Source: Tepiditoga spiralis
Lineage (GTDB): Bacteria > Thermotogota > Thermotogae > Petrotogales > Petrotogaceae
DNA: 64,000 nucleotides
Direction of reading: 5' to 3'
Assembly (NCBI RefSeq): GCF_014701195.1
Contig: NZ_AP018712.1
Location: forward strand, 514,501 to 578,500
The number at the start of each line of letters is the position of its first letter. The first letter of the stretch is position 1. A model generated the notes under the pieces. The model searched no databases, was not told the origin of the DNA, and saw only the letters and a list, made by a program, of their open reading frames with translations. Position numbers and translations under genes: made by a program. Of this stretch, positions 39,464 to 47,832 are shown piece by piece.

Positions 39464-40810
39464 CTAATAACTTAATATTTCTTTTATATTGCTTTCTATA
39501 TAACTATATACTATTTCTTTGCATTTATCATTTTTATAAATATTTTCTTCATAACCTTCTATCATTCTCTTTCTTTGATCTGGACATAAACCTTTGCAAT
39601 ATCTCAAAAATTCACATGAAAGGCATTCCCCTTCATTAACTGTTAACAAAGATGCTTTTTCTACATAATCTAATCTATTTTTATTTCTTGATATTATTTT
39701 AAAATCATTATCAATAATTTCTTTTAATGTAGTATAAGCTTTATCTTTTTCATAAACATAATTCCAACATTTATAAACATTTCCAAAAATATCTATAACT
39801 AAATCATCATTATCACATTCAGCACTACAAAAAGCATTGACTCCATTATTTGATATTATTGGTTCTAAAAATTTATATTTAAATAATTTATGGGTAAAAT
39901 TATTTTTTATGTCTTTAAACTCATAATTAGTATATGAATATTCACTTCCAAAAACTCTAGATAAATCAATAAACAAATATTTACCAACAAATTTACTAAA
40001 TTTTTTATTTATAGTATCTATTAAATTATTTACTTGTTTAAAATTTTCTTTATCAATATTTATTCTAATAACTGTCTCAATTTTATTAGAAATTAATTTT
40101 TCTATATTATTTAAAATTTGATTATAAGTTCCTTTATTACTTTTTAATTTTCTACGATGATTATGCATATCTTTTTCACCATCTAGAGTGATTTGAATAT
40201 AACTTGTATTGTATTTTTTTAATTCGCTTATGAATTTATCATTTATTAAATATCCATTTGAAATAATTATATTATTAAATTCTATATCTTTTTCTTTTCC
40301 TAACTCATAATATTCTTTATTAATTTTGTTAATAAAATCGTATTCTAATGTTGGTTCTCCACCATACCATACAATTGTTATTTTTTTTAAATTATTATTT
40401 TTTATTTTATTATTAATATAATCACTCAAATTTTTTCTAAATTCATTTTTTGTTTTTTCATTAACATTAATATAATTATTTAAATTTTCTTTTTCAAAAC
40501 AATAAGTACAAGAAAAATTACATTTATTTGTAACAGCAATATCTATTTTTAAAGAATCACTTTTTAAATGTTTACTAATTAAATAATTATTTCTATTATT
40601 AAAATAAAAATTATTGTATTCATTTTTATCAATTATAAATCCGTTTTTTCTTAAAATATTAACTTCTTCATTCGAAAGTTTCTTTATATTTTTATTTTTT
40701 AAATGTTCATATGAATTTTTATCTAATTTTATTAAAGCACCATTTTCAGTATTTAAAATATAATAATTATTTTTTAAATAAAAAAAAGCCTTATTTTTTG
40801 TTAAAAACAT
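39464..40810 (-). CDS. Radical SAM/SPASM peptide maturase
   Basis: 448 aa. Residues 1-65 (AFFYLKNNYYILNTENGALI, LRKNGFIID) look like a small winged-helix or peptide-recognition domain. The radical SAM motif is CNFSCTYC with Cys97, Cys101 and Cys104 binding the [4Fe-4S]-SAM cluster, followed by WYGGEPTLEYDF. The C-terminal SPASM region has many cysteines, including CSAEC, KCWNY, GECLSCEFLRYCKGLCPDQR and KCKEI, enough for auxiliary clusters. Such enzymes crosslink Cys or other residues of ribosomal peptides. The 35-aa Cys peptide gene directly upstream is the likely substrate. AAGGAG precedes the ATG. Confidence 0.9.
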   Translation of the reverse strand: MFLTKNKAFFYLKNNYYILNTENGALIKLDKNSYEHLKNKNIKKLSNEEVNILRKNGFIIDKNEYNNFYFNNRNNYLISKHLKSDSLKIDIAVTNKCNFSCTYCFEKENLNNYINVNEKTKNEFRKNLSDYINNKIKNNNLKKITIVWYGGEPTLEYDFINKINKEYYELGKEKDIEFNNIIISNGYLINDKFISELKKYNTSYIQITLDGEKDMHNHRRKLKSNKGTYNQILNNIEKLISNKIETVIRINIDKENFKQVNNLIDTINKKFSKFVGKYLFIDLSRVFGSEYSYTNYEFKDIKNNFTHKLFKYKFLEPIISNNGVNAFCSAECDNDDLVIDIFGNVYKCWNYVYEKDKAYTTLKEIIDNDFKIISRNKNRLDYVEKASLLTVNEGECLSCEFLRYCKGLCPDQRKRMIEGYEENIYKNDKCKEIVYSYIESNIKEILSY

Positions 40811-40835
40811 ATTTTTTCTCCTTTATTTAATATTT

Positions 40836-40858
40836 AGGAGAAGCACAAAGCTCCTCCT
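40836..40858 (-). promoter_or_regulatory. Hairpin between the peptide gene and the maturase gene
   Basis: AGGAGAAGC and GCTCCTCCT form a 9-bp stem (one G-T pair) around a five-base loop, seven bases after the peptide stop. No T run follows on the minus strand. It may stabilise the peptide mRNA end or reduce expression of the downstream genes, which is common in peptide clusters. Confidence 0.6.
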
Positions 40859-40864
40859 ATTTAG

Positions 40865-40972
40865 TTATCTGTCTATTACTTTTCTACAAGGACCCAAATG
40901 AGAACATGGTCCGCATCCCATTGGAACATAAGCTCCTTTATCCGATTTTTCTGCTTTTATAATTACTTTCAT
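40865..40972 (-). CDS. Candidate ribosomally made, Cys-containing precursor peptide
   Basis: 35 aa plus TAA, ATG at 40972 with GGGAGG seven bases upstream, an unmistakable ribosome site. The N-terminal half is charged and leader-like (MKVIIKAEKSDKGAYVP); the C-terminal half is MGCGPCSHLGPCRKVIDR with Cys at 20, 23 and 29. It lies 54 bases upstream of the radical SAM/SPASM gene and is followed by two exporter genes, the classical layout of a radical SAM peptide cluster. There is no double-Gly cleavage site. I do not recognise the family. A small metal-binding or chaperone peptide is an alternative. Confidence 0.78.
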   Translation of the reverse strand: MKVIIKAEKSDKGAYVPMGCGPCSHLGPCRKVIDR

Positions 40973-41000
40973 ACAAAATCCTCCCTTCTCATTTATTTAA

Positions 41001-41162: not shown

Positions 41163-41192
41163 ATTATAGCAAAAAAAAAAAAAAAAAATCAA
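41163..41192 (-). promoter_or_regulatory. Promoter of the peptide cluster with homopolymeric spacer
   Basis: Reading the minus strand: TTGATT at 41192-41187, then a spacer of 18 bases, then TATAAT at 41168-41163. The spacer is almost wholly T: plus-strand A runs unbroken from 41171 to 41188 (18 bases, two shared with the -35). The predicted start is about 185 bases before the peptide ATG. No other good promoter is seen between here and the peptide gene. Confidence 0.6.
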
Positions 41193-41540
41193 CTATTTTT
41201 AGTGCACTAATTAATATTTTTACCTAAATATAATGTTTTTTTGATTAATTTATATCATTTATTTTTTTTTTTTATGTTATTAAATTTATATTAACTATTA
41301 ATATTTGTGAATTTAAATTTTATATTTTTTATAATGTTATTATTAATCATTTTTATTATAAAAGTTTGTGAAATTCCATTAAAATATTTTTTTTATAAAT
41401 ATTTTGATTTAATTTTTTATTATTGATGAAATATTAATATAAAAAATTTAAGTGTTTTTTTACTTTGATTTTTAACTATTTTTCATCATTACTTTCACAC
41501 TTTTATGGATAATATCTTTAAAAGTTATGAGTTTTTATAA
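41193..41540. other. Non-coding AT-rich spacer
   Basis: About 350 bases of extreme AT content with several long T runs and no ORF. The last 60 bases (from about 41480) resemble the sequence just beyond the second nuclease paralog at 43490-43540, so this flank was duplicated with the gene. Confidence 0.6.
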
Positions 41541-41565
41541 AAAAATATCCCAGCATCGCTGGGAT
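41541..41565 (-). terminator. Intrinsic terminator of nuclease paralog 1
   Basis: On the minus strand ATCCCAGC, loop GAT, GCTGGGAT, then ATTTTTTT, immediately after the stop codon. Confidence 0.9.
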
Positions 41566-43103
41566 TATATCTTTTCTATTTTGTATTCGTCTATGTTTCT
41601 TTTTTCTGAGTTTATGTTTATTCCTATTATATAAACTTCTTTCCCTTTGTACTTTTCATAGTACTTCATTTCTTTTATTTGATTTAAGGCTTTTTCTGCA
41701 CTCTTGTCTATCTTTATTTCCATTATGTATATGATGTCTTCTTCTATTACTATATCGCTTCTTCCTAAGTTCGTTAATTCTTCTGCTGTTACGTTCAATC
41801 CCGCTGATGCGAGTATTGTGTATATCAATGAATGATAGTAACTTTCTTCTTTTTTGTGCAAGTTGTATGGGATTGCACTTATTATTCTTTTTATTTCTTT
41901 TATTATTCCTTCTATGTCTTTTTCTTTTATTGCTTTCCATATTGTTTTGTTTATTTCTTTTATTTTTCCTCTTTCAAGTTCATAGTTTGCTTCTAATATC
42001 ATCTTTGAAAAGCTATTCTTTACTTCTATGTTTGGATAGTCTAATAGGTATTCATATTCCATTCCATATTGTTCTTTTCCTTTAAAAGTCAAATATCCTG
42101 CTTGTGTAAAGAATATACTTGCATTTGCTTCTTCTATTTCTCGGGTTGAAAAATCGAGTTCGCTCACTGGATACTTCACTAAGTCTTCGTATCTTATCTT
42201 CTTTCCTTTTATATATTCATACAAAAATGATGGTGAGCCACTTTCAAACCAATAGTTTTGAAACTTCTTTTTTTTAAAAAATTGTAGTATTGAAAATGGA
42301 TTGTATACACTATTTTCTCCATCAAATGAAAATCCATTGTAGTACATCTTTAAGTTTTTTAATAACTCTTTTTCTTCCATCTTCATTTCAATTGCTGTTT
42401 CTTTTATGTGTTCTTTAAAGTTACTTTCTAACTCTTCTTGTGTGTATCCCAACATCTGTGCGTATGTTTTATCTAATGATATATCATTTAAGTTGTTCAA
42501 TGCTGAAAATACTCCTGTTTTTGTGAATTTTGTTATTCCTGTCATGAATACAAACTTTATGTATTCGTCTTTTGATTTTATTTTTTTATAGAACTCTCTT
42601 AAAAATCTTCTTATTTTTTCTGCTTCTTCTTTATTGTTTAGATGTTCTAATATTGGTGATTCATATTCATCTATTAGTATTACTGTTCTTTCTTTATTTT
42701 TTTTATTTAAATCTTCTATTATATTTCCAAACATCGTTGGTAAATCTTTTGTTGTTGGTGTTATTCCTTCTTCTTTATATATTTTATTTATTTTATCTTT
42801 TAATGATTCTATAAATTCTTCATATGTGGTTAATGTATTATCTGACATATCTATTTTTATCACTGGATATTCTTTGAACTCCCATTTGTCGTATATGTAT
42901 GTACCCTTAAATAATTCTTTTTCTCCTTTAAACAGATAGTACAGTGTTGATACCGTTAAGCTCTTTCCAAACCTTCTTGGTCGAGATAAAAAATAAAATT
43001 TTCCATTTGTTACTAATTCATGTAAATATTTTGTTTTATCTATGTATATATAATCTGTTATTAACTCTTTAAAGTTTTGTACTCCTATTGGTAGTTTTTT
43101 CAT
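41565..43103 (-). CDS. AAA-ATPase/PD-(D/E)XK nuclease paralog 1
   Basis: 512 aa from ATG 43103 behind AGAGGTGAT. N-terminal ATPase-like region: LPIGVQNFKELITDYIYIDK, FLSRPRRFGKSLTVSTL (Walker-A-like), TVILIDEYESPIL (Walker-B-like) and FVFMTGITKFTKTGVFSAL. C-terminal nuclease: RSDIVIEEDIIYIMEIKID, giving D and E-x-K. Function of the family is unknown. Residues about 85-175 are nearly identical to paralog 2 but unlike paralog 3, whereas residues about 345-400 match paralog 3 and not paralog 2. It lies directly upstream of the peptide cluster region, in the same orientation. Confidence 0.85.
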   Translation of the reverse strand: MKKLPIGVQNFKELITDYIYIDKTKYLHELVTNGKFYFLSRPRRFGKSLTVSTLYYLFKGEKELFKGTYIYDKWEFKEYPVIKIDMSDNTLTTYEEFIESLKDKINKIYKEEGITPTTKDLPTMFGNIIEDLNKKNKERTVILIDEYESPILEHLNNKEEAEKIRRFLREFYKKIKSKDEYIKFVFMTGITKFTKTGVFSALNNLNDISLDKTYAQMLGYTQEELESNFKEHIKETAIEMKMEEKELLKNLKMYYNGFSFDGENSVYNPFSILQFFKKKKFQNYWFESGSPSFLYEYIKGKKIRYEDLVKYPVSELDFSTREIEEANASIFFTQAGYLTFKGKEQYGMEYEYLLDYPNIEVKNSFSKMILEANYELERGKIKEINKTIWKAIKEKDIEGIIKEIKRIISAIPYNLHKKEESYYHSLIYTILASAGLNVTAEELTNLGRSDIVIEEDIIYIMEIKIDKSAEKALNQIKEMKYYEKYKGKEVYIIGININSEKRNIDEYKIEKI

Positions 43104-43214
43104 TTTTATCACCTCTAATTTTTATTATACCATATGTTTTTATAGTACTATCTCTCATTATAATTTGATTTCTTAAAACTTCATATAATTTTTTTTATTG
43201 TTCACTCAAAAAAC

Positions 43215-43385
43215 AAAAAAAGTATCCTGTAAATTTTACAGGATACTTTTTATTGTATTGTATATTCCATTCCTTGTGGGGTGTCTTTTAATATAATTCC
43301 AACTTTCTTTAACTCTTCTCTTATGTAATCTGACATTTCATAATTTTTTTCTTTTTTTGCTTTTTTTTAATTTTTTGATACTTCT
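43215..43385 (-). pseudogene. Truncated copy of the cysS 3' end with its terminator
   Basis: Positions 43215-43367 are identical to 48761-48913, which is the cysS terminator, stop codon and last codons. At 43369 the match jumps to about 49073-49089 inside cysS, so roughly 160 bases are deleted across a T run. It then joins the dispersed element at 43386. The palindrome at 43221-43250 remains a functional-looking terminator. Confidence 0.88.
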
Positions 43386-43447
43386 TTTTTCCTTCCTGGC
43401 CCATTTTTCAATTGTATTCCTGGCTTACTTTTATTATACATTAAACA
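43386..43447 (-). repeat. Dispersed 60-bp element, copy 1
   Basis: Contains CCTTCCTGGCCCATTTTTCA followed by TGGCTTACTTTTATTATACA and TTAAACA. On the minus strand it reads as a TATAAT -10, a GCCAGGAA motif and an ATGGGCCAGGAAGG start-like sequence. Related copies lie at 47833, 48260 and 48588. It may be the promoter and 5' end of a lost transposase gene. Confidence 0.65.
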
Positions 43448-43536
43448 AAATACGTTTTTTAGAAAATTTGAATGGCGAATGTTTTATTTTTTCACTATTT
43501 TCCATCGTTACTTTCACGCTTTTTATGAGTTTTTAT

Positions 43537-43564
43537 AAAAAAATATCCCAGCACCCGCTGGGAT
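43537..43564 (-). terminator. Intrinsic terminator of nuclease paralog 2
   Basis: On the minus strand ATCCCAGC, loop GGGT, GCTGGGAT and a T run; nearly the same as the terminator after paralog 1. Confidence 0.9.
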
Positions 43565-45096
43565 TATATCTTTTCTATTTTGTATTCGTCTATGTTTCTT
43601 TTTTCTGAGTTTATGTTTATTCCTATTATGTAAATTTCTTTTCCTTTGTACTTTTCATAGTACTTCATTTCTTTTATTTGATTTAAGGCTTTTTCTGCAC
43701 TCTTGTCTATCTTTATTTCCATTATGTATATAGTGTCTTCCTCTATTACTATATCGCTTCTTCCTAAGTTCGTTAACTCTTCTGCTGTTACGTTCAGTCC
43801 TGCTGATGCTAGTATTGTGTATATCAATGAATGATAGTAACTTTCTTCTTTTTTGTGCAAGTTGTATGGTATTGCACTTATTATTCTTTTTATTTCTTTT
43901 ATTATTCCTTCTATGTCTTTTTCATATATTCTTTCATATATTGTGGTTTCTATTTGTTCTATTTCTCTTATTCCATAGTTTGCTTCTAATATTATCTTTG
44001 AAAAGCTGTTCTTTACTTCTATATTTGGATAGTCTAATATGTACTTTTCCCTCAATCCTAATCTTTTTATTCCTTTAAAGGTCAAGTATCCTGCTTGTGT
44101 AAAGAATATACTTGCATTTGCTTCTTCTATTTCTCGTGTTGAAAAATCAAGTTCGCTCACCGGATACTTCACTAAGTCTTCATATCTTATCTTCTTTCCT
44201 TTTATGTATTCATACAAGAATGATGGTGATCCACTTTCAAACCAATAGTTTTGAAACTTTCTTTCATTAAAAAATCTTAATATTGAAAATGGATTGTATA
44301 CACTATCTTCTCCATCAAATGAAAATCCATTGTAGTACATCTTTAAGTTTTTTAATAACTCTTTTTCTTCCATCTTCATTTCAATTGCTGTTTCTTTTAT
44401 GTGCTCTTTAAAGTTACTTTCTAACTCTTCTTGTGTGTACCCCAACATCTGTGCGTATTTTTTATTCAACGATATATCATTTAAGTTGTTCAATGCAGAA
44501 AATACTCCTGTTTTTGTGAACTTTGTTATTCCTGTCATGAATACAAACTTTATGTATTCATCTTTTGATTTTATTTTTTTATAGAACTCTCTTAAAAATC
44601 TTCTTATTTTTTCTGCTTCTTCTTTATTGTTCATATGTTCTAATATTGGTGATTCATATTCATCTATTAATATTACTGTTCTTTCTTTATTTTTTTTATT
44701 TAAATCTTCTATTATATTTCCAAACATTGTTGGTAAATCTTTTGTTGTTGAGGTTAGTCCTTCTTCTTTATATATTTTATTTATCTTATCTTTTAATGAT
44801 TCTATAAATTCTTCATATGTTGTTAATGTGTTATCTGACATATCTATTTTTATTACTGGGTATTCTTTGAACTCCCATTTGTCGTATATGTATGTACCCT
44901 TAAATAATTCTTTTTCTCCTTTAAACAGATAGTACAGTGTTGATACCGTTAAGCTCTTTCCAAATCTTCTTGGGCGTGATAAAAAATAAAATTTTCCACT
45001 TGTTATTAATTCATATAAATATTTTGTTTTATCTATGTATATATAATTTGTTATTAACTCTTTAAAGTCTTGTACTCCTATTGGCAACTTCTTCAC
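43564..45096 (-). CDS. AAA-ATPase/PD-(D/E)XK nuclease paralog 2
   Basis: 510 aa from GTG 45096 behind GAGGTGAT; a longer in-frame ATG at 45117 lies before that site. Same architecture as paralog 1, with FLSRPRRFGKSLTVSTL, LIDEYESPILEHMNNKEEAE and RSDIVIEEDTIYIMEIKID. The region around residues 345-395 (GIKRLGLREKYILDYPNIEV, EIEQIETTIYERIYEKD) differs from the other two, while flanking sequence is nearly identical, which points to module exchange. Catalytic residues are intact. It is monocistronic, with the duplicated exporter fragment upstream. Confidence 0.85.
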   Translation of the reverse strand: MKKLPIGVQDFKELITNYIYIDKTKYLYELITSGKFYFLSRPRRFGKSLTVSTLYYLFKGEKELFKGTYIYDKWEFKEYPVIKIDMSDNTLTTYEEFIESLKDKINKIYKEEGLTSTTKDLPTMFGNIIEDLNKKNKERTVILIDEYESPILEHMNNKEEAEKIRRFLREFYKKIKSKDEYIKFVFMTGITKFTKTGVFSALNNLNDISLNKKYAQMLGYTQEELESNFKEHIKETAIEMKMEEKELLKNLKMYYNGFSFDGEDSVYNPFSILRFFNERKFQNYWFESGSPSFLYEYIKGKKIRYEDLVKYPVSELDFSTREIEEANASIFFTQAGYLTFKGIKRLGLREKYILDYPNIEVKNSFSKIILEANYGIREIEQIETTIYERIYEKDIEGIIKEIKRIISAIPYNLHKKEESYYHSLIYTILASAGLNVTAEELTNLGRSDIVIEEDTIYIMEIKIDKSAEKALNQIKEMKYYEKYKGKEIYIIGININSEKRNIDEYKIEKI

Positions 45097-45200
45097 TTTT
45101 ATCACCTCTAATTTCATTATACCATATGTTTTTTTTATATTTATAGTACTATTTCTTATTATGATTTCATCATTTTCAAATTAAATAAAATTTCATATGA

Positions 45201-45566
45201 TTTTTTTCTTTTTATTTTATCATATAAAGTATAGTTCCTTTTATTTTCTTTATTAAAAGCAAAATAATTTATTATTTCTATTTTTCCATTTATCGTATCC
45301 TCAGTATCATCAAAATATATCATATATCCTTTTTCAACATTACTTATATTTTTTAAATAATAGTTATTTGCATATTTAAATATAAAAAATGAAACTGTTA
45401 TAATGAAAAAAGTAGAAAAACCTATTATATAATTTAAATTAAACATGATAATACTTATTATTATTAACCTAAATAAACTAATAAAGCTATTCATACTTTC
45501 TAAATTAAATATAGATATAAAACTATCTATTTTAGTAGTTAAAACATCACTGTAATATTCTGTTCC
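45201..45566 (-). pseudogene. 366-bp duplicate of part of the ABC exporter gene
   Basis: This stretch matches 37127-37492 without gaps and with only a few substitutions, so about 99 percent identical. It covers part of the membrane domain of the second half-transporter. One end abuts the transposase tail at 45567 and the other lies about 100 bases from the paralog 2 start. It has no start codon context and cannot make a transporter. Confidence 0.9.
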
Positions 45567-45743
45567 TTCAGGAAGGCTACCAAGACCAAATCAATATTCC
45601 CTAATGACGATGCTGTTCTTAAAAGTTTATACCTTACTACCAAAAACGTGACAAAAAAATGGACAGCACGGTTTCACAACTGGAACGCTGTTATTTCCGA
45701 ACAGTCCATCCTTTTCGAGGATCGTCTTAAAAACTACCTCTGA
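45567..45743 (+). pseudogene. C-terminal remnant of an IS256-family transposase
   Basis: 58 codons plus TGA reading FRKATKTKSIFPNDDAVLKS then LYLTTKNVTKKWTARFHNWN and SILFEDRLKNYL, which is the conserved end of IS256/Mutator-type transposases. The rest of the gene is missing; the cut falls exactly at the edge of the duplicated exporter fragment. Base composition is clearly richer in G and C than the flanks, indicating a foreign origin. Confidence 0.88.
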
Positions 45744-45772
45744 AAGTAGCTTGTAATCCTTAAAAACTCTAT

Positions 45773-45868
45773 ACTTTGTACCGGGCAGATGGGTTGTCGC
45801 CCTTACTTTGTACCGGGCAGATGGGTTGTCGCCCTTACTTTGTACCGGGCAGATGGGTTGTCGCCCTT
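45773..45868. repeat. Three perfect 32-bp tandem repeats of high GC content
   Basis: Units start at 45773, 45805 and 45837 and are identical. Each contains GTACCGGGCAGATGGGTTGT and CGCCCTT, about half G/C in a region otherwise near 25 percent. Each unit can fold through GGGC and GCCC. There are no spacers, so it is not a CRISPR array. It follows the transposase remnant by 30 bases. Confidence 0.9.
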
Positions 45869-46071
45869 TCAGTCATTGCAGTTTTTTACTGTAAAAGGGT
45901 GGTTTTACCAATTTTGCCTTATTTAATTCATACTATTCAGGAACATTTTTTTCATTTTCTAATAACTACATTTTTTTAAGATTTTTGTCGTTGTTTTCCA
46001 ATATTTATATGCTACCAGATATATCTAATACACACTAATCTTTACAGACTCATTTTCTTAATACTCTCAAA

Positions 46072-47604
46072 TTATACCTTTTCTATTTTGTATTCGTCTA
46101 TATTTCTTTTTTCTGAGTTTATGTTTATTCCTATTATGTAAATTTCTTTTCCTTTGTACTTTTCATAGTACTTCATTTCTTTTATTTGATTTAAGGCTTT
46201 TTCTGCACTTTTATCTATCTTTATTTCCATTATGTATATAGTGTCTTCCTCTATTACTATATCGCTTCTTCCTAAGTTCGTTAATTCTTCTGCTGTTACG
46301 TTTAGTCCTGTTGATGCGAGTATTGTGTATATCAATGAATGATAGTAGCTTTCTTCTTTTTTGTGTAAGTTGTATGGTATTGCACTTATTATTCTTTTTA
46401 TTTCTTTTATTATTCCTTCTATGTCTTTTTCTTTTATTGATCTCCACATCGTTTTATTTATTTCTTTTATTTTTCCTCTTTCAAGTTCATAGTTTGCTTC
46501 TAATATCATCTTTGAAAAGCTGTTCTTTACTTCTATATTTGGATAATCTAATAAATATTCATATTCCATTCCATATTGTTCTTTTCCTTTAAAGGTCAAG
46601 TATCCTGCTTGTGTAAAGAATATGCTTGCATTTGCTTCTTCTATTTCTCGTGTTGAAAAATCGAGTTCGCTCACTGGATACTTCACTAAGTCTTCATATC
46701 TTATCTTCTTCCCTTTTATGTATTCGTACAAAAATGATGGTGATCCACTTTCAAACCAATAGTTTTGAAACTTTCTTTCATTAAAAAACCTTAATATTGA
46801 AAATGGATTGTATACAGAATTCTCTCCATCAAATGAAAATCCATTGTAGTACATCTTTAAGTTTTTTAATAATTCTTTTTCTTCCATCTTCATTTCAATT
46901 GCTGTTTCTTTTATATGCTCTTTAAAGTTACTTTCCAACTCTTCTTGTGTGTATCCCAACATCTGTGCGTATTTTTTATTCAATGATATATCATTTAAGT
47001 TGTTTAATGCAGAAAATACTCCTGTTTTTGTGAACTTTGTTATTCCTGTCATGAATACAAACTTTATGTATTCATCTTTTGACTTTATGCTCACATAAAA
47101 GTCTCTCAATATTTCTCTATACTTTTCTGCTTTTTCTTTGTTGTTTATATTGTCTAATATTGGTTTTTCATATTCATCTACTAATATTACTACTCTTTCT
47201 TTTTGGGATAGTTTTATTATTAATTCATTGAATGCATATTTATAGTTTGTGTTTTCTATTGTTATTCCATATCTTTTCGCTTCTTCTTTTATTATTTCTA
47301 ACAAGCCATACTTAAAACTTTGTTCGTTCTCTGTTGAGACATCCAACAAATTTATTCTTATCACTGGATACTCTTTGAATTCCCATTTATCGTATATGTA
47401 TGTTCCTTTAAATAAGTCTTTTTCCCCTTTAAATAGATAGTACAGTGTTGATATCGTTAAACTCTTTCCAAACCTTCTTGGTCGAGATAAAAAATTAAAT
47501 TTTCCACTTGTTATTAATTCATGTAAATATTTTGTTTTGTCTATGTATATATAATCTGTTATTAATTCTTTAAAGTCTTGTACTCCTATTGGTAGTTTTT
47601 TCAT
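46072..47604 (-). CDS. AAA-ATPase/PD-(D/E)XK nuclease paralog 3
   Basis: 510 aa from ATG 47604 behind AGAGGTGAT, with TATAAT at 47629-47624 on the minus strand. Same ends as paralogs 1 and 2, but residues about 85-180 are replaced by a different sequence (IRINLLDVSTENEQSFKYGL, RVVILVDEYEKPILDNINNK, YREILRDFYVSIKSKDEYIK). Around residues 345-400 it matches paralog 1 almost exactly. ATPase-like and nuclease motifs are complete. The swapped block spans the Walker-B-like strand, so it could alter partner or substrate recognition. Confidence 0.85.
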   Translation of the reverse strand: MKKLPIGVQDFKELITDYIYIDKTKYLHELITSGKFNFLSRPRRFGKSLTISTLYYLFKGEKDLFKGTYIYDKWEFKEYPVIRINLLDVSTENEQSFKYGLLEIIKEEAKRYGITIENTNYKYAFNELIIKLSQKERVVILVDEYEKPILDNINNKEKAEKYREILRDFYVSIKSKDEYIKFVFMTGITKFTKTGVFSALNNLNDISLNKKYAQMLGYTQEELESNFKEHIKETAIEMKMEEKELLKNLKMYYNGFSFDGENSVYNPFSILRFFNERKFQNYWFESGSPSFLYEYIKGKKIRYEDLVKYPVSELDFSTREIEEANASIFFTQAGYLTFKGKEQYGMEYEYLLDYPNIEVKNSFSKMILEANYELERGKIKEINKTMWRSIKEKDIEGIIKEIKRIISAIPYNLHKKEESYYHSLIYTILASTGLNVTAEELTNLGRSDIVIEEDTIYIMEIKIDKSAEKALNQIKEMKYYEKYKGKEIYIIGININSEKRNIDEYKIEKV

Positions 47605-47832
47605 CTTTATCACCTCTAATTTCATTATACCATATGTTTTTTTAATTATATTTATAGTACTGTCTCTTATTATAGTTTCATTACTTTTTAAATCGTATTT
47701 ATATTTTTTTTTACGCAGCTATAAGCTGTGTTTTTTATTTCATTATTTTTGATCTAAATATTTTTTATATTTTTATGAGACTATATTTCAATTTTTTGTA
47801 TTTTCTATAATTATTTATGTATTTTGCAAGTG

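Follow-up and report, generated by a model that had tools for sequence, protein, structure and literature searches.

A candidate radical SAM-modified peptide operon in Tepiditoga spiralis behind a putatively phase-variable T-tract promoter present in 12 genomic copies

RiPP crosslinkers typically have small, Cys-rich precursors. Among described systems, Clo7bot (TIGR04333/TIGR04334) combines small Cys peptides with a SPASM maturase and a nearby ABC exporter gene, an arrangement resembling that of a locus in the window (the whole 64-kb stretch of DNA analysed here; GC, 25.6%), whose maturase is related. Short M-K-x-I-x-K-type leaders are common to the window peptide, to the annotated Clo7bot peptides (MKFIKKPARKFEEGFC... 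on Paraclostridium plasmids) and to peptides of two other genomes, G003 and G010, as judged by eye with no model fitted. However, one precursor is present here versus a tandem array in Clo7bot, and TIGR04333 did not match the window peptide up to E 10, although it recovered a positive-control peptide (L035, 4.9e-10); the name Clo7bot did not occur in the literature searched. The highest NCBIfam scores of the window maturase were to CefB (NF038107, 167.7 bits), TIGR04463 (163.8 bits) and Clo7bot (TIGR04334, 150.1 bits), far below the respective cut-offs of 600, 525 and 600 bits, and the Cys of the window peptide are spaced by 3 and 6, whereas those of CefA/CefB recur at every fifth residue. Foldseek ranked the SCIFF/ranthipeptide maturase CteB (5WHY/5WGG) first for the AlphaFold2 model of the window maturase (mean pLDDT 81), followed by anSME and TigE. 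CteB has a layout of radical SAM, SPASM and RRE, to which the window maturase, with its predicted RRE-like N-terminus, would correspond, but identity across the structural alignment is 18–19%, and the window precursor, with three Cys in 35 residues, has no SCIFF motif. The score against NF047865 (PapA/PapB) was likewise below cut-off (105.6 of 340 bits). As cut-offs were missed, membership of Clo7bot, CefA/CefB, SCIFF and PapA/PapB was rejected; no curated NCBIfam cut-off was reached, so the maturase would be a RiPP-crosslinking SPASM-like enzyme outside any named family.

Much of the outline of the operon (Table 1) had been given by a sequence-only reading. Its minus-strand 35-aa ORF with three Cys (Cys20, Cys23 and Cys29) behind GGGAGG was borne out base for base, and Pfam and the coordinates agree with it on the 54-base gap (40811-40864) between the peptide stop and the ATG of the radical SAM/SPASM gene and on the two ABC half-exporters without peptidase domains that follow. 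The lack of a double-Gly site in the peptide was confirmed on inspection of the sequence. That reading did not recognise the peptide family, nor do the models: NCBIfam gave zero matches up to E 10, and Pfam gave sub-threshold matches only. The T-tract promoter module escaped it because the module lies outside the stretch it described (40865-40972).

Table 1. Features of the window operon and genes faced by the 12 copies of the promoter module
Feature	Position	Strand	Details
ABC half-exporter 2, 534 aa	36224-37828	minus	No peptidase domain (Pfam)
ABC half-exporter 1, 548 aa	37812-39458	minus	No peptidase domain (Pfam)
Radical SAM/SPASM maturase, 448 aa, complete gene	39464-40810	minus	CxxxCxxC, seven SPASM Cys, RRE-like N-terminus
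Stem-loop, possible partial terminator, peptide/maturase gap	40835-40859	minus	-16.2 kcal/mol, z -4.4
Precursor peptide, 35 aa, MKVIIKAEKSDKGAYVPMGCGPCSHLGPCRKVIDR	40865-40972	minus	ATG start; core kept in G086
Conserved core CGPCSHLGPCRKVI, residues 20-33 of the peptide	40874-40915	minus	12/14 identical to G086 peptide
Ribosome-binding site GGGAGG	40980-40985	minus	ATG 7 nt further on
Promoter TTGA-T18-GC-TATAAT	41163-41192	minus	T tract 41171-41188 fills 18-bp -35/-10 spacer
Conserved promoter module, ~300 bp	41163-41472	minus	One of 12 genome copies
Copy, window			Candidate RiPP operon
Copy, L039			Second radical SAM gene, no peptide visible
Copy, L169	L169:1289-2725		PqqD-like + radical SAM/SPASM + 35-aa Cys peptide MDYKEPIVKVSKVVIEIDGCGKGTCNGKSRSVFCN; spacer 7
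Copy, L172	L172:12848-13072		Circularin A/uberolysin-family circular bacteriocin; TIGR03651 57.4 bits vs 30.7
Copy, L172	L172:3588-3749		Shortened second bacteriocin copy, behind T-tract module
Three copies, L171 and L173 (twice)			C39 peptidase-like + apolipoprotein N-acyltransferase-like + exported protein
Copy, L168			Exported peptide + CAAX-protease-like gene
Two copies, L170 and L174			Lipoprotein-like pairs
Copy, L175			Membrane proteins incl. CAAX-protease-like

A DNA pattern for CGPCSHLG had exactly two matches among 103 genomes of the phylum, one here and one in G086, which belongs to the same class but a different family, and the reversed pattern, run as a control, had none. The G086 match lies just upstream of the closest relative of the window maturase in the phylum (35% identity, E 5.5e-59), and the peptide there, MKEILPKKSQSVPIISGMCGPCSHLGGCRRVISS, follows a GGAGG site directly 5' of that gene. 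Between the two peptides the leaders have diverged, whereas the cores differ at two of 14 residues and carry 8 silent nucleotide differences; the best of 200,000 shuffles of the G086 peptide reached 9/14 core matches. On this sequence evidence the 35-aa ORF is a real gene, because its core is kept with silent changes beside a sister maturase in another family. The earlier reading had proposed looking for the same peptide–maturase pair in related genomes, and G086 supplies it, although the family so far has two members in the 103 genomes and the G086 maturase, on a 3.6-kb contig, has an interrupted reading frame, reflecting either an assembly error or a broken gene. A weak peptide match in G004 was dropped, its contig having no maturase. 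Searches for the peptide in plasmids and for the core pattern in viral contigs found none, no such peptide lies beside the best viral maturase relatives, and a scan of genome contigs returned a distant Omnitrophota relative only.

The maturase carries the radical SAM CxxxCxxC at residues 97–104 (C97, C101 and C104; PF04055, E 5.5e-20) and the seven-Cys SPASM motif (C328-x14-G-x4-C348, C396-x2-C-x5-C-x3-C409 and C430), which is invariant in the alignment. Its model begins with three strands and helices, an RRE-like part of approximately residues 1–60. A tree built from 31 maturases places the window and G086 enzymes in a clade of their own (support 100/99, stem 1.22). The same gene order recurs in G003, where a 34-aa peptide, MIEIIKPKKIIYHTNSCGVGGVSNCCPGTSSKLS, precedes a radical SAM gene and two ABC genes; its core is different. 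A similar peptide occurs in G010, and the maturases of G003 and G010 sit elsewhere in the tree. Sequence and gene order together make a new small radical-SAM RiPP precursor/maturase family very probable, with a subfamily of precursor and maturase outside all curated models and a short core open to testing. Further Cys-rich precursor families were seen beside SPASM maturases at L059, L060, L066 and L056 (MKWIERNDEYSEEFWCPCKGP..., MEFVNEPREENLFSFCDFG...), unmatched by NCBIfam where tested. On Sarcina plasmids, 20-aa one-Cys ORFs, MKLIGKSGLEVDSICGVQIG and MIILNEKKPLVLIDKCPARA, lie immediately 5' of a radical SAM gene (L034:2352-2414 and L036:5149-5211) and are possibly unannotated, very short precursors.

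Both exporters consist of ABC_membrane and ABC_tran domains, with no C39 peptidase domain found by Pfam in either, and by eye the Walker A, SGGE signature, Walker B and H-loop residues are intact in both ATPase parts. A stem-loop stands at the place in G003 equivalent to that in the window (z -5.0), and in the window it may keep maturase expression lower than peptide expression. Upstream, at 41565-47625, are three tandem AAA-ATPase_like/PDDEXK_9 genes. Recent duplications in a rearranging region are indicated by a 98.9% copy of 366 bp from the second exporter gene (45201-45566) and a 100% copy of the cysS 3' end (43215-43367).

The T18 tract is the longest homopolymer in the window (the next is 12). 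The module core, in the non-coding DNA 5' of the peptide gene, has exactly 12 copies in the genome and none in 102 other genomes with up to 3 mismatches allowed. Conservation stops just past TATAAT, beyond which the copies diverge; the whole 5' region of the window copy is shared only by the second radical SAM locus (88%). All 12 copies carry TAGTTGA, a T tract and TATAAT in this order, oriented to the downstream operon, and the spacers between TTGATT, an imperfect -35 box, and TATAAT measure 18 (window), 18, 16, 7, 16, 18, 11, 23, 13, 19, 17 and 16. Sigma-70 promoters have spacers of 15–20, the best being 17 +/- 1, and T. maritima promoters are recognised by E. coli RNA polymerase (PMC2412878). 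By the 15–20 rule, the promoter would be ON in eight copies and OFF in the remaining four. Similarity among the copies may be kept by gene conversion rather than selection.

None of the 12 copies stands before a housekeeping operon; all head operons of a peptide or secretion type (Table 1). Three face radical SAM loci, among them L169, a third candidate RiPP locus in the genome, whose promoter is predicted to be OFF. The three L171/L173 loci are near-identical, with a stand-alone C39 peptidase-like gene, disrupted in one of the three, and an exported protein with SDSQMSAVVGG. This distribution suggests a set of phase-variable peptide operons, each of which could be turned ON or OFF by slippage of its T tract, and the module, common to 11 further loci, is a more unusual feature than the peptide operon itself.

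A strict pattern (TTGA, T tract, G, TANAAT) occurs at 10 sites in five genomes of one sister genus (G005, G010, G015, G017 and G019; L196-L208, L214-L221) and at none in 15 other genomes of the family, and the reversed pattern had zero matches. The upstream block there is of other sequence and identical layout. Among six distinct loci, what lies downstream is a radical SAM gene in three, a small peptide-like ORF in one and an ABC transporter in one. Besides ranging from 7 to 23 between the copies here, tract length varies at three orthologous loci of the sister genus. T17 versus T16, upstream of a related radical SAM gene, is the sole indel in 3817 columns with 12 substitutions; T19 versus T20 falls in an 8891-bp stretch with 85 mismatches and three gaps, each of a single base; and T15 versus T19 stand behind the same neighbour gene. 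These lengths come from draft assemblies, in which homopolymers may hold sequencing errors.

We favour, with a probability of about 0.68, a RiPP operon with thioether-type maturation, export and a slippage-switched T-tract promoter. Minus-strand 40972-36224 would be the operon of a ribosomal peptide that the radical SAM enzyme alters; the precursor's leader of ~18–19 residues is probably held by the maturase through its RRE-like N-terminus. The SAM/SPASM part would then modify the core CGPCSHLGxCRxVI, most likely through thioether crosslinks from at least one of the three Cys, a plausible chemistry. The two half-exporters probably pair to export the peptide, and an unlinked protease would remove the leader. 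Transcription would start from the promoter with the T tract as its -35/-10 spacer, and slippage of the tract probably alters that spacer, switching each operon separately; the window copy, with its spacer of 18, would be ON. The earlier proposal of a radical SAM-modified ribosomal peptide stands on the pair conserved in G086, the peptide unmatched by models and the exporters free of peptidase domains; overall that reading is supported in part, with thioether crosslinking, export and a separate protease as its conjectural side. Placing the operon under a phase-variable promoter, as read from the sequence, is somewhat better than an even bet.

Other explanations of the peptide can be weighed against these data. 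That no family model matches would suit a chance ORF, a reading we rejected as having almost no probability given the conservation of the core in G086 with silent changes beside a sister maturase of another family, and given the shuffle test. A metal-binding or redox (metallophore-like) peptide, with CxxCxHxxxC offering four ligands and a modification other than a thioether, would account for the identity of all three Cys and the His in both peptides and for the match of CGPC to the active-site motif of thioredoxin. We consider it improbable, however, as CteB, the closest match among solved structures, forms thioethers, and the operon has exporters as neighbours, with zero uptake or metal genes. 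Anaerobic sulfatase maturases act at CxPxR, and a Cys oxidised to something resembling formylglycine, or another non-crosslinking change, would fit the presence of anSME among the best fold matches, the C-G-P in the core and a TIGR03942 score of 106.7 bits. That score is nevertheless far under the family cut-off of 349, the CxPxR position has no Arg, and a small Cys-rich precursor is a trait of RiPP crosslinkers; this alternative is very unlikely.

For the promoter, the module could instead be a duplicated AAA-ATPase 3' flank spread by recombination, with tract differences that are neutral noise or sequencing error. Nine of the 12 copies lie <=314 bp behind an AAA-ATPase_like gene, approximately 55 such genes (PF09820 matches) are present in the genome, and recent duplications abound in the region. 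Yet the other three copies lack an AAA-ATPase_like gene immediately 5', the AAA flank is also found without the module (L176 and L177), the conserved block stops at the -10 box with 12/12 copies facing an operon, and the layout recurs with different sequence in the sister genus. We therefore regard passive spread of an AAA-ATPase flank as unlikely, if the least remote of the alternatives considered, and retain the slippage-switched promoter as the preferred reading.

In its widest form, this reading is a combinatorial, phase-variable set of secreted peptides, in which 12 T-length switches give single cells different peptide sets, the sister genus does likewise with a diverged module, and the window operon contributes a new precursor family with the core given above; we put this at even odds. 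Promoter homopolymer switches have usually been described in host-associated bacteria. Here, a T-tract promoter set joins RiPP and bacteriocin genes, and a lineage of free-living type would thus be predicted to hedge its bets in making peptides. A limited literature search found no paper tying homopolymer promoter switching to RiPP operons or reporting it in Thermotogota. The closest described parallel is provided by the vlp genes of Mycoplasma hyorhinis, in which insertions and deletions in a promoter homopolymer tract cause ON/OFF switching (PMC10502178). Switching is known there and putative here; the vlp tracts are A tracts before surface lipoprotein genes, whereas those described here are T tracts before RiPP and bacteriocin operons in another phylum. 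What the two systems have in common is a homopolymer tract in the promoter of each gene of a set (PMC10502178).
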